Shown one piece after another: positions 50,818 to 55,480 of a stretch of 64,000 nt of DNA (its first letter is position 1; each line of letters opens with the position of its first letter). Position numbers and translations under genes: made by a program. The DNA comes from Tenericutes bacterium MO-XQ. Its GTDB lineage: Bacteria > Bacillota_I > Bacilli_A > Acholeplasmatales > Acholeplasmataceae. The notes below the pieces were generated by a model. It searched no databases. It was not told the origin of the DNA and saw only the letters and a list, made by a program, of their open reading frames with translations. The DNA lies in assembly GCA_002838185.1 (NCBI GenBank), contig CP017948.1:62001-126000 (forward strand). The letters run 5' to 3'.

Positions 50818-51039
50818 ATGAAAAAATTATGTTTTGGGTTTGTTTTGATGGGTTCTGGTATTTTATTGATTTCCGCTTCATTAATCTCTGGAGCAATATT
50901 AGCAGCTAGAAATTCTTATGGTGATATATTTGATTCACAAGTCATCAGCACCTTTACTCTTCTTGGCTTTATCATGTTTGTTCTTGGTATTGCGATAGCA
51001 ATCACAGAGGCTTTTAGAAAAAATAAACAAGAATCATAG
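50818..51039 (+). CDS. small membrane protein
   Basis: 73 residues with two TM spans (LCFGFVLMGSGILLISASLI and STFTLLGFIMFVLGIAIAI) and a basic tail. Unknown family. Confidence 0.75.
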   Translation: MKKLCFGFVLMGSGILLISASLISGAILAARNSYGDIFDSQVISTFTLLGFIMFVLGIAIAITEAFRKNKQES

Positions 51040-51049
51040 AATTATAACA

Positions 51050-51083
51050 ATGCTCTTTTCAAGATTGAGAAGAGTATTTTTAT
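51050..51083 (+). terminator. terminator after the 50818 gene
   Basis: ATGCTCTTTTC with GAGAAGAGTAT and a T-rich tail. Confidence 0.65.
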
Positions 51084-51186
51084 TTAAGAAATAATTAAGA
51101 TGTCTAAGCTATCTCGTTAATGATAAGAGTTTAAAGTCGTGTTATAATAAAATTACAATGTAGATAAAGAAATGGAGAACTGCTAT

Positions 51187-53874
51187 ATGAAAGCCCTCTT
51201 TAAAAAATCATGGTTTACAGGAGTTTTAGCCTTAGGACTATTATTGCTCATTTTTTTAATAGATCTTTGGGTCATGAACTTAAAGCTTAGAATACCATAT
51301 CAAAATGATACAATGATGTCTTTAGCACGTGATATATCCGATGGAGACTTCATTAATATATTTTCATTTGTATTAAGGATACTGTTTTTTGTAGCATTTA
51401 TTCCACTGCTTTTATCTGGACTTAGTGTATTTAAAAAAACAAATTGGGGATTAACTACAGGGGTTTTATACTTTTTAGGATTTAACATCACATTGATTGT
51501 TTATCAAGCAAGTTATAATGCATTATCTATTTTTTCTATCATTCTCATTATTTTTAATTTTATTTTAATGACCGCTATTTTTATTACCTTAATCATAAGA
51601 AAGAAGACGCTCATTGAAAATAGCGATATTAAGGTCACTGAAAAAGATAAAGAGTTAACCAAATCGAAAATACCGCTAAGCGTATTAATCATTGATTTTG
51701 TAGCACTAGCAATTGCCTTATCCACATTTTTTATTCCACTTTATACCCTAGGTGGTATAGATCCATATAGACCGATATTGATATCTGTCTTATTTACAAG
51801 TGATTTAAGCTATGATGTCATCATCTATTTCTTTTATAATTTTGTTATCTTCTTGAGTATATTTTTATACCTTTCAAGATGTTTAACATATTACTTTTTT
51901 GATAAGTCAAAATTTATCACAGAATCTAAATCGTTTATTAACTTTATATTTGTTACAACAATCATATTCTTTATCACAGGATTATCTATAAGCACGTATT
52001 ATACATTAACGGGTTCAATAGCAAGCACTCCAGCATTTATTCCTATGATCTTAATGAGTGTTGTGATATTTGCATATTCAATCTTTAGAGGGAAATATAA
52101 CGCTTTTGAAGCATTAACTGTTGATCAAAAACAAATGAAATACCCAAGGATTGAACCTCTCTTATATGTTATCTTATTAACCGCAATTTCAGTATTAATG
52201 TTACTGCTTTATATTGTTAAAATTGAAATATCATACGGTACTTACACGAATTCAGTTCGCTTATCAGGCCTGGATATTCTTAGAGATTATGCGGTATTGG
52301 ATCCTGGATATCGAATTATCGCATTCATCTTAGTAACAATGCTGATTACAGTAGGTATTACATTAGTGACTAGTATTTCTAGTTATCTATCTAAACATAA
52401 GCAATTTAGTAAAATAGTTATTTTAGCTACAGTTTTAAATATCTTCTTTGTTTTTGCGATTTCAATTTCAGGTTTCTATTTCCAAATTGCTAAAGAAATC
52501 AATCAAAGTGTATTAATAGAGATATTCTCTACTTATGGTATCAATCTATTGGATTCAATCACATATGATTATAAGGTTGGAACTGATGCAATTTATGCGC
52601 TTATCGCAGCTGTTATCGTTTTAGTGATTATGTTTGCAAGAAAATCATTTGATCGAGATGAGTTAACACCATTAGAAGCGACGCTTTCATCATCAAGCGA
52701 TATCAGCACTACAGGTGATGAAGCTGTACCAGCAGATGCTTATGATGATGAAAATTTACAGAATTTTGATCCATGTCCTGCATTTACAGATCTTGATCAA
52801 AGTACAGAAATATATGAAAAAGATTTAGAAAAACGAGAAGGATTCAAAGTTAAAGAAACATCATTAAATGATTTGGTGAACTTTGTTGTCGAATATGCAA
52901 GAAACTCAAGATTGCATCTATCATACACACCTGAAGATATCGCAACATTTGTTTCTGGTATGGGTGCAAGCAAGCTTTCTATCTTACAAGGGATGTCAGG
53001 AACTGGTAAAACAAGTCTACCTAAAATATTCTCAGAAGCTATTTATGGCAACATAGATATCATTGAAGTTGAGTCTTCTTGGAAAGATAAAAACGAACTA
53101 TTAGGGTACTATAATGAGTTTTCAATGAAGTATACACCTAAAAAATTCACATTAGCTCTTTATAAAGCTGCGCTTAATAAAGAAATATTCACCATCATAT
53201 TACTTGATGAAATGAACTTATCACGCATTGAATATTATTTCTCTGACTTTTTATCACTTATGGAAAATGAAGAAGAGTACAGAGAAATCAAACTTATTAA
53301 TATTAAGCTTAACCGAAAAGAAGATGATGAAGAAATTGAGTACAAAGCATTAGAACACGGCAATACACTTAAAGTGCCTGCTAACGTATGGTTTATCGGT
53401 ACAGCAAATCGTGATGAGTCTACATTCGTTATCTCGGACAAGGTTTATGACCGCGCACACACAATGAATTTCACAAAACGTGCACCTAAGGTTAGAAACT
53501 ATCAAAATCCAATCGCTAGAAAATATTATGATTATGAAATCATAAACGATTTATTTATGGATGCTAAAGCAGCTGGCGACTTTGATGCAGAACAAAATGA
53601 AATTATTAAAAAGGTAGAAGTGTTATTAGCGCCTTTCAATATTTCATTTGGGAATCGTATCTTAAAACAAATCGAAGATTTTGTGAATATATATAAAGCA
53701 TGTTTCCCTAATGAAGATGTAGAAAAAGAAGCTGTAGAAAAGATATTACTCAGTAAAGTGGTTGCAAAACTTGAAGTTAAGACCATTGACGATAAAGAAC
53801 AACTTGAAATGGAATTTGACAAGTTGGACTTAAAATTGTGTGCTGAGTTCATTAAACGTTTAGACAATGAGTAA
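51187..53874 (+). CDS. membrane-embedded McrB-like AAA+ ATPase
   Basis: 895 residues. The N-terminal 480 residues hold about 12 hydrophobic spans in two blocks, followed by an acidic linker (about 495-560). From about 570 comes an AAA+ domain of the McrB/AAA_5 type: Walker A GMSGTGKTS near 603, Walker B LLDEMNLSRIEYYF near 674, sensor region GTANRDEST and SDKVYDRAHTMNF. McrB normally is a soluble GTPase motor that pulls DNA for its nuclease partner; here it is anchored in the membrane. ATG 51187 is preferred (GGAG upstream). Eight bases overlap with the next gene. Confidence 0.85.
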   Translation: MKALFKKSWFTGVLALGLLLLIFLIDLWVMNLKLRIPYQNDTMMSLARDISDGDFINIFSFVLRILFFVAFIPLLLSGLSVFKKTNWGLTTGVLYFLGFNITLIVYQASYNALSIFSIILIIFNFILMTAIFITLIIRKKTLIENSDIKVTEKDKELTKSKIPLSVLIIDFVALAIALSTFFIPLYTLGGIDPYRPILISVLFTSDLSYDVIIYFFYNFVIFLSIFLYLSRCLTYYFFDKSKFITESKSFINFIFVTTIIFFITGLSISTYYTLTGSIASTPAFIPMILMSVVIFAYSIFRGKYNAFEALTVDQKQMKYPRIEPLLYVILLTAISVLMLLLYIVKIEISYGTYTNSVRLSGLDILRDYAVLDPGYRIIAFILVTMLITVGITLVTSISSYLSKHKQFSKIVILATVLNIFFVFAISISGFYFQIAKEINQSVLIEIFSTYGINLLDSITYDYKVGTDAIYALIAAVIVLVIMFARKSFDRDELTPLEATLSSSSDISTTGDEAVPADAYDDENLQNFDPCPAFTDLDQSTEIYEKDLEKREGFKVKETSLNDLVNFVVEYARNSRLHLSYTPEDIATFVSGMGASKLSILQGMSGTGKTSLPKIFSEAIYGNIDIIEVESSWKDKNELLGYYNEFSMKYTPKKFTLALYKAALNKEIFTIILLDEMNLSRIEYYFSDFLSLMENEEEYREIKLINIKLNRKEDDEEIEYKALEHGNTLKVPANVWFIGTANRDESTFVISDKVYDRAHTMNFTKRAPKVRNYQNPIARKYYDYEIINDLFMDAKAAGDFDAEQNEIIKKVEVLLAPFNISFGNRILKQIEDFVNIYKACFPNEDVEKEAVEKILLSKVVAKLEVKTIDDKEQLEMEFDKLDLKLCAEFIKRLDNE

Positions 53875-55435
53875 TATGAATAAACAAGTCTCTAAAATTA
53901 ATATTGAAGAGTATCAAAGGTTTTCTACACTTTTAGAGGGTATTGAAAGATTTGTTAAACAACACGAAATTGTTTCTTATATAGAGTTTGATTATTATGT
54001 CGTTCACGATATGACATTATTTTCGATTGAGCCTGATTTTGATTTCCAAAAACTCAGTGAAACGATTGAGCAGATTAAAAAATCATTACCAGCCATTAAA
54101 AGAATTTTTAGTAAACCGATTATTGTATTAAAAGATGAAGATGATGTGCTTCCTGTTGAAAACACAAGAATCATTAATCAAAATACATTACTCCATTTAG
54201 CAAATCATAGTCAGTATGTTTCAAACATTTCAAGAAAAGGTGTTAAACCTAGAAAACTTCTAACTAGAATTTATGATGATGATTATAGTATTTATGAAAA
54301 TATCATATTTTGTAATTTCATTGATGAAATCCTCGCACTTATTAAGAAAAATAGAAGAACGTTAAATAGTTTATTATATGCAAGTAACATCATGAAGTTC
54401 AATTTGTTAGAAAAAGTGAATCACTTAAAGTATTTTCTAGCCCTAGGTAAACTACATACTGGATATATTAGGGATTTTAGCCGCTATTTTAACTTATCTA
54501 AAGAACTTTTAAAAGAATTATCTCATATTAGTCAAACCATTAACCCAAGACTACACAAACCCGTATATCGAAAGAATTTAACTAGAAATAAAAACCTAAA
54601 CCTTAAGAAAACAAATATATTTCTGATGCAAAAAGACTACAGAAGAGTCTATAAAACATATAAGCACTTATTGGGCAATAAAGTCAAAATCAAAGAAGAA
54701 GTTGTGACTTTGGATTATGAGCATATGAGAGAAAATTATTTAACATATGTTCAGTTACTTACGATATTTTCTGTAGGTCATTTTAATTTTGAGATTGATC
54801 CTAAGTTTAAAATGAATTTGAGTTCATTAGATTTATCTTTTAATTATAAAAATTGGACCTTAGATATTTTTACGAATAATAAAAAAGAAACGATTCTTCA
54901 TTTTAATAAAGATAAAGTATATAAAATGATTCTAGTTGGTAATGATTATGATCGCAAGACATTCAATCAATATAAAAAAGATTATGGTATTGATGAAATG
55001 ATTGTTGTCGATCAGTTTGAAACAGATTATGTGGATAGAAAACATGTGCTCATTAGTATTGAAGATATTGATTCTTTTAGACGCATTCAGCAAATCATCC
55101 TAAAGGGTATGATTTATTCTGATACTAAAAGAGATGTGTGTCCATTTTGTGGTGGACATTTAGTCAAGGATACTTATCAAGATTTATACCAATGTGATAG
55201 TTGTATGACTCAAATCAAAAAAGAAACATGCAAAGAAACTAGAAAATCATTTTTCTATACAGACATCGCGCATTTGAAAAAACATATTATACGTAAATCA
55301 GATTTTGAACACGGTGATACTTGGTATTATGATAAACAGGTGGAATCACTGATGTATTATAGAAACATCACGAGAATTAATGAACAAGGGGATATTATTT
55401 GTCCACATTGTAATAAAGTTCACGAAAATATGTAA
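53867..55435 (+). CDS. DUF2357/McrC-like partner with zinc ribbon
   Basis: 522 residues. The segment YDDDYSIYENIIFCNFIDEIL (near 140-160) is typical of DUF2357, the companion family of McrB-like AAA+ proteins. A C-terminal zinc ribbon CPFCGGH...YQCDSC (about 425-445) is followed by a second pair CPHC at the end. A PD-(D/E)xK nuclease signature is not obvious to me, so nuclease activity is not claimed. It overlaps the McrB-like gene by 8 bases (ATGAGTAATATG). Confidence 0.78.
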   Translation: MSNMNKQVSKINIEEYQRFSTLLEGIERFVKQHEIVSYIEFDYYVVHDMTLFSIEPDFDFQKLSETIEQIKKSLPAIKRIFSKPIIVLKDEDDVLPVENTRIINQNTLLHLANHSQYVSNISRKGVKPRKLLTRIYDDDYSIYENIIFCNFIDEILALIKKNRRTLNSLLYASNIMKFNLLEKVNHLKYFLALGKLHTGYIRDFSRYFNLSKELLKELSHISQTINPRLHKPVYRKNLTRNKNLNLKKTNIFLMQKDYRRVYKTYKHLLGNKVKIKEEVVTLDYEHMRENYLTYVQLLTIFSVGHFNFEIDPKFKMNLSSLDLSFNYKNWTLDIFTNNKKETILHFNKDKVYKMILVGNDYDRKTFNQYKKDYGIDEMIVVDQFETDYVDRKHVLISIEDIDSFRRIQQIILKGMIYSDTKRDVCPFCGGHLVKDTYQDLYQCDSCMTQIKKETCKETRKSFFYTDIAHLKKHIIRKSDFEHGDTWYYDKQVESLMYYRNITRINEQGDIICPHCNKVHENM

Positions 55436-55439
55436 ATAA

Positions 55440-55480
55440 AAAAGCATGGAATCTGAAAAAATGATTCCATGCTTTTTATA
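55440..55480. terminator. bidirectional terminator
   Basis: A 14-bp perfect stem, AAAAGCATGGAATC with GATTCCATGCTTTT, between convergent genes. Confidence 0.9.

Follow-up and report, generated by a model that had tools for sequence, protein, structure and literature searches.

A McrB-type motor with a predicted twelve-span membrane domain and its DUF2357-type partner in Tenericutes bacterium MO-XQ

Of the Type IV restriction families McrBC is the best known, and motor-driven cutting is its defining feature. Its ring is hexameric, and the partner protein inserts a basic residue, repositions the signature motif and stimulates hydrolysis (PMC7680126). An NxD motif defines the McrB branch that holds the CoCoNuT and CoCoPALM systems (Bell et al. 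2024, PMC11090510). In the main text of that paper, coiled-coil NxD systems that lack the McrC nuclease are always accompanied by HEPN or other nucleases, CoCoPALM is described as linked to pilus assembly, and membrane helices on an NxD motor are mentioned only for CoCoPALM, as a one-helix, FtsB-like anchor. PcdA of Staphylococcus aureus is a McrB turned cell-division protein that localises to division sites (PMC10602043). Here we analyse a gene pair, B and C, from a 64,000-nucleotide stretch of the genome of Tenericutes bacterium MO-XQ (Acholeplasmataceae; contig CP017948.1, positions 62,001 to 126,000; hereafter the window). The pair represents a membrane branch of the McrBC family that has not been described before. 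Judging from sequence, we give a probability of about 0.5 to the reading that it is a membrane-embedded, CoCoNuT-related NxD branch that acts on the membrane and protects the cell, as an accessory system, against phages or mobile elements.

The features of the two genes, in window coordinates, are listed below (TM, transmembrane).

51187-53874, plus strand: gene B, 12-TM McrB-like AAA+ protein, 895 amino acids (aa); the mechanical list of open reading frames (ORFs) begins it at 51172
51187-52701, plus strand: membrane domain of B, residues 1-505, three 4-TM blocks, with helices near 14-32, 61-79, 88-106 and 118-136 (block 1), 165-183, 212-230, 250-268 and 282-300 (block 2), and 326-344, 377-395, 410-428 and 466-484 (block 3)
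52765-53871, plus strand: AAA+ domain of B, residues 527-895, with Walker A GMSGTGKT (602-609), Walker B D674-E675 (IILLDE), the NxD residues N741 and D743, and R756
53867-53874, plus strand: overlap of B and C, exactly 8 bases, ATGAGTAA
53867-55435, plus strand: gene C, DUF2357-like/zinc-ribbon partner, 522 aa
54116-54646, plus strand: DUF2357-like core of C, residues 84-260, with invariant D138 and IYEN (142-145)
54716-55126, plus strand: middle alpha/beta domain of C, residues 284-420, in the place of the CnuC nuclease-like domain
55127-55432, plus strand: zinc ribbon of C, with C425, C428, C443 and C446 invariant and C512 and C515 kept in 90% or more

Hydropathy over 37 homologues and the ORFs confirmed the gene coordinates, the 12 membrane spans preceding the AAA+ domain and the eight-base overlap, all of which had been proposed in a first-pass annotation of the window. 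An in-frame ATG also lies at 51172, 15 bases earlier; the Met at 51187 was taken as the start of B because most orthologues begin there and a GGAG stands about 9 nt upstream. Order-wide and class-wide comparisons indicated that the two genes are tightly coupled and their pairing obligate.

That the motor of B belongs to the McrB family, within the pre-sensor-1 hairpin clade, is strongly supported. When its AAA+ profile was compared with 177,635 PDB sequences, McrB alone was recovered at an expectation value (E)<=0.1 (6hz4 at 7.8e-4, 6ut6 and 7vsr; range 7.8e-4 to 2e-3), and Foldseek returned, for the AAA+ domain, relatives of the MoxR, MCM, dynein and Lon group. Walker A, Walker B and the sensor Asn are intact, with K608, D674/E675, N741 and D743 invariant among B homologues. 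The signature GTANRD (within GTANRDEST) is of the NxD type, and the NxxD GTPase signature of canonical McrBC is absent. The kinship to McrB suggested in the first pass was thereby upheld.

In the AAA+ tree all of the 29 polytopic B proteins fell into a single clade (support 100/100), which grouped with coiled-coil CoCoNuT-type motors (96/90) and apart from the CoCoPALM clade (100/97). The nearest AAA+ relatives were coiled-coil forms from Treponema and Pseudomonadota. This tree was rooted on E. coli McrB, a very long branch, and its deeper order is less sure.

Averaging hydropathy over the homologues yielded exactly 12 spans in B. The positive-inside rule was obeyed by 13 of 13 loops, which predicts an N-in/C-in topology with N-terminus and AAA+ domain alike on the cytosolic side. 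The three four-helix blocks aligned end to end in each pairwise comparison (E about 1e-4, probability 43-54%), which is suggestive of a three-block repeat, bearing in mind that hydrophobic helices align easily. In some relatives the first block is absent, leaving about 8 spans. Sequence divergence is much faster in the membrane domain than in the AAA+ domain (pairwise identity 22-37% vs 68%), and in the class-wide sample the membrane domain occurred only within B genes of C-bearing genomes, with one marginal exception. The structure model of B had a predicted template-modelling score (pTM) of 0.49, and the linker of about 40 residues was modelled at low confidence. We considered whether the TM domain is homologous to a transporter or channel of solved structure and rejected this: Foldseek matches fell on the AAA+ domain, and membrane-protein profile matches were weak (best 0.01).

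The assignment of C as a DUF2357-type partner with a zinc ribbon is likewise strongly supported. C of the window itself matched no DUF2357 model; two orthologues did (6.4e-5), and profile comparison related C to CoCoNuT partners at 99.6% and to CoCoPALM partners at 99.5%, which bears out the DUF2357 partner named in the first pass. The same comparison detected no direct similarity to E. coli McrC. D138 and the IYEN motif are invariant in 55 sequences. C carries three CxxC pairs (425, 443 and 512), rather than the two Cys pairs originally counted, and the first two are invariant in the 55 homologues. Its ribbon resembles the nucleic-acid-binding ribbons of eL43, TFIIB and TiaS.

A PD-(D/E)xK site, which the first-pass annotation had envisaged in C, was absent: no such triad is conserved among the 55 homologues. 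E377 is the sole D/E kept above 90% within residues 284-418, and D419 sits at the ribbon boundary. The model of C was confident (predicted local distance difference test, pLDDT, 85.9), and a Foldseek search with the whole model gave no PDB match at E<=1e-3; the best match, to a YdjA-YdiS model, was weak (E 4.3e-3, TM-score 0.11). An active PD-(D/E)xK nuclease in C is thus rejected on conservation, and the fold comparison lends it no support.

B-C resembles CoCoNuT (CnuB/CnuC; Bell et al. 2024) in its NxD McrB-type AAA+ motor, its DUF2357 partner encoded by an overlapping gene and its zinc CPxC pairs; several CoCoNuT types also have a partner without an active PD-(D/E)xK. In contrast to CoCoNuT, B has 12 (or 8) TM helices in place of long coiled coils, C is smaller, and no nuclease was found in the partner or, with HEPN models not searched, nearby. 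CoCoPALM shares a membrane-tied NxD McrB-type AAA+ motor (37% identical to that of B) and a DUF2357 partner. It differs in bearing one FtsB-like TM helix plus a coiled coil on the motor, in a coiled-coil partner without a zinc ribbon, in its surface-protein and signal-peptidase-like neighbours and in its separate clade. Linkage to signal-peptidase or pilus-like genes was not seen for B-C in the window's order, where no such neighbours recur, locus L093 being an exception. On architecture, context and the AAA+ tree, we rejected the idea that B-C is itself CoCoPALM. The existence of CoCoPALM, two operons of which lie in the same genome, makes the initial statement that McrBC-type systems are normally soluble too strong.

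Canonical McrBC (E. coli K-12; PDB 6hz4, 6ut6) shares AAA+ sequence and motif kinship and the two-gene motor/partner layout. In contrast, B carries NxD where McrBC has NxxD, lacks a modified-base reader domain and shows DRA (one R) where E. coli McrB has an arginine run, and C lacks the McrC nuclease triad. PcdA resembles B as a McrB-family protein working at the membrane, but its Walker motifs are degraded, it has EVE domains and it lacks a partner (PMC10602043), whereas B has intact motifs and a partner. The PADLOC candidate model PDC-M26A matched the AAA+ region of B (5.9e-48); it is generic, matching CoCoPALM and CoCoNuT motors as well, and C matched no PADLOC model. Our literature search on PDC-M26 and other membrane McrBC systems found nothing further, and the comparison supports the earlier view that no system of this kind has been characterised.

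We sought C in 150 genomes of the window's order and found about 28 adjacent orthologous B-C pairs. The ratio of nonsynonymous to synonymous substitution rates (dN/dS) against a close relative was 0.05-0.17 in every domain, indicating purifying selection. The arrangement is therefore real beyond chance, and purifying selection together with synteny with the nearest relative ruled out that the window copy is a pseudogene or an orphan. When 84,980 species genomes were scanned, further carriers came to light in other Bacilli and Clostridia, among them termite-gut bacteria with 8-TM forms. Within one sister genus the pair was carried by 8 of 16 genomes (our own count). Between the window and a family of another order (f24), rpoB was 62-64% identical and the AAA+ domain 76-82%; for comparison, the values against family f3 were 62-69% and 61-66%. 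Because AAA+ identity of 76-82% to another order exceeds what the rpoB identity allows, B-C has crossed orders. One of the cross-order genomes, G390, is a metagenome-assembled genome and possibly misbinned; three others show the same pattern. On sequence evidence the pair is thus accessory: it is patchy within genera, has changed site and has crossed orders.

In loci L048 (genome G039), L092 and L113, B was split or frame-broken while C was open, as expected of a dispensable module. At L067 (4694-6007, minus strand) an in-frame fusion joins spans 5-8 of B to residues 300-515 of C, without the AAA+ and DUF2357 parts; it is probably a deletion derivative.

Neighbouring genes were ordinary and not conserved in most genomes, and no recurrent third gene stood beside the pair in most lineages examined. 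No additional conserved nuclease was found by the pair, no search aimed at HEPN models having been made. Among 13 loci from Acholeplasmataceae and their sister family, three have a known defence gene directly 3' of C, compared with none of 10 upstream genes. The three are Drt3b, which adjoins Drt3a; AbiEii, accompanied by AbiEi, HipA and PDC-S01; and GmrSD. PADLOC 'mad3' matches among the neighbours were discarded as cross-matches to ordinary ABC ATPases. Two species of the window's genus have the pair next to one and the same conserved oad-birA operon, but the defence cargo differs: DRT3 in one and, in the other, AbiE/HipA with a serine-recombinase-fragment-like gene further out. This site holds unrelated genes in six other genomes, and the window and its nearest relative have the pair at a different location. 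This variable context is the behaviour of a moving accessory module. More generally, the site upstream of oad-birA (L217 and L218 vs L210-L216) holds variable cargo in the window's genus and a sister genus.

A role in conflict is favoured because defence genes adjoin the pair in three relatives. The membrane domain appears the likeliest effector, because no nuclease was found in C or a conserved neighbour, though the published CoCoNuT rule requires one, and also because it is the fastest-diverging part. We envisage that B forms a McrB-like hexameric ring at the inner face of the membrane, and that the DUF2357 region of C would dock on this ring and stimulate its nucleoside triphosphatase. The middle domain and zinc ribbon of C may recognise foreign nucleic acid as the trigger, and the membrane domain would deliver the output, either opening or distorting the bilayer or keeping nucleic acid from entering there. 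Action on incoming DNA, as the first pass suggested, is possible. More tentatively, and with the odds against it, the pair could be a nuclease-free McrBC rewired such that cytosolic nucleic-acid sensing gates or distorts the membrane through a multi-helix effector, with no cutting of DNA or RNA. If true, a monophyletic branch that trades the reader or coiled coil for a 12-helix membrane domain and lacks any recognisable nuclease would extend the family from cutting to membrane action, and B-C would join CoCoPALM and PcdA as cases of McrB motors working at the membrane. Being small, self-contained and portable, the pair lends itself to a direct test of this question.

Several observations weigh against an accessory defence function. 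Purifying selection acts on every domain, with no sign of an arms race, the window copy lies among metabolic genes in synteny with the nearest relative, and the defence association of 3 in 13 is a small sample. No relative of the pair was found in viral contigs, and matches on plasmids and phages were distant only; phage- or plasmid-borne spread was rejected on this basis. Both nucleic-acid binding and membrane activity are predicted functions. Finally, a lipoprotein gene separates C from B in each of the four termite-gut 8-TM loci, and the CoCoPALM cousins in the window's own genome are linked to surface-protein genes. These last two points favour an envelope machine without an immune role: its AAA+ ring would pull or position proteins, through the membrane domain or next to it, for surface-protein assembly, secretion or sorting, as is suspected for CoCoPALM. 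Such a machine would also suit the precedent of PcdA (PMC10602043), the BspA-type leucine-rich-repeat lipoprotein gene just upstream at L123, the M23 peptidase gene downstream at L204 and the two secreted-type proteins and second AAA+ pair in a row with the 12-TM pair at L093. No surface gene recurs by the pair in the window's order, however, and the patchiness within genera and the crossing of orders are unlike a core envelope function; the defence neighbours in three genomes and the grouping of the AAA+ domain with coiled-coil CoCoNuTs, outside the CoCoPALM clade, also count against it. We consider this explanation, the main rival, unlikely, though one to be taken seriously.

An accessory defence system could also act by cutting, if C were an active nuclease of an unfamiliar kind; the pair would then be a Type IV restriction system anchored in the membrane and cleave DNA or RNA on entry. 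The region after DUF2357 is the site of the nuclease fold in McrC and CnuC, K348 (49/55) and E377 (51/55) are conserved there, and the ribbon is of a nucleic-acid-binding kind. The lack of a conserved D...(D/E)xK triad and the failure of a confident model to find a PDB match at E<=1e-3 make this improbable. We hold it equally improbable that the membrane domain merely anchors or localises the motor, for instance at a septum or uptake site, with the pair controlling DNA segregation or uptake. The one-helix anchor of CoCoPALM (PMC11090510), the localisation of PcdA to division sites (PMC10602043) and the poor sequence conservation of the TM domain are in line with an anchor. Twelve spans in three diverged blocks under purifying selection nevertheless exceed what an anchor needs, and linkage to competence or division genes was not seen in the neighbourhoods examined.

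Three sites around the pair bear on its transcription.

51049-51078, plus strand: terminator-like hairpin 5' of the pair; the scanner found 1 vs 1.1 +/- 1.0 in shuffles, a weak signal
51120-51148, plus strand: promoter-like site with extended -10 (TATAAT), a consensus match only and not above shuffled expectation
about 55436-55480, plus strand: hairpin 3' of C, AAAAAGCATGGAATC-loop-GATTCCATGCTTTTT with a T tail, read directly, its loop being too long for the scanner

The upstream hairpin may insulate B-C from the small preceding gene (about 50820-51040). The downstream hairpin is strong and, with its T tail, is likely the terminator of a two-gene unit. Because one hairpin precedes the unit and a strong one with a T tail follows it, B and C probably have a transcript of their own.

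Some lineages displayed local companions of the pair. In one Anaeroplasma-like group (L055-L060) two genes, of 166 aa and of 181 aa with 2 TM helices, always lie 3' of C. L093 (106-10502) lines up a 12-TM pair with two secreted-type proteins and with a second McrB-like AAA+ protein, of 4 TM helices, plus its partner. The gene order in termite-gut Bacillota is C, lipoprotein, 8-TM B. The lipoprotein genes (L126:4355-5347, L127:8432-9964, L128:8112-8822 and L132:7858-8439) encode mutually homologous, acidic and repetitive proteins with no confident Pfam family. Their confinement to this 8-TM group ruled out a universal extracytoplasmic third component.

Related NxD systems were also met. The window's genome (G000:C1, about 777-805 kb; L069 and L070) holds two neighbouring CoCoPALM-type operons whose motors are one-TM coiled-coil NxD McrB proteins of 518 and 513 aa. 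Alongside the motors are signal-peptidase-like genes, very large proteins and small proteins of secreted type whose N-termini bear a YAWFT-like motif; of the two operons, only the second yielded a coiled-coil DUF2357 protein (4.8e-12). CoCoPALM-like pairs occurred in about 20 relatives (L173-L192). At L195 (MT835511.1:36490-45916), on a contig that was deposited as a human-faecal phage and may be bacterial rather than phage, a soluble, coiled-coil CoCoNuT-like pair adjoins helicase-like genes.

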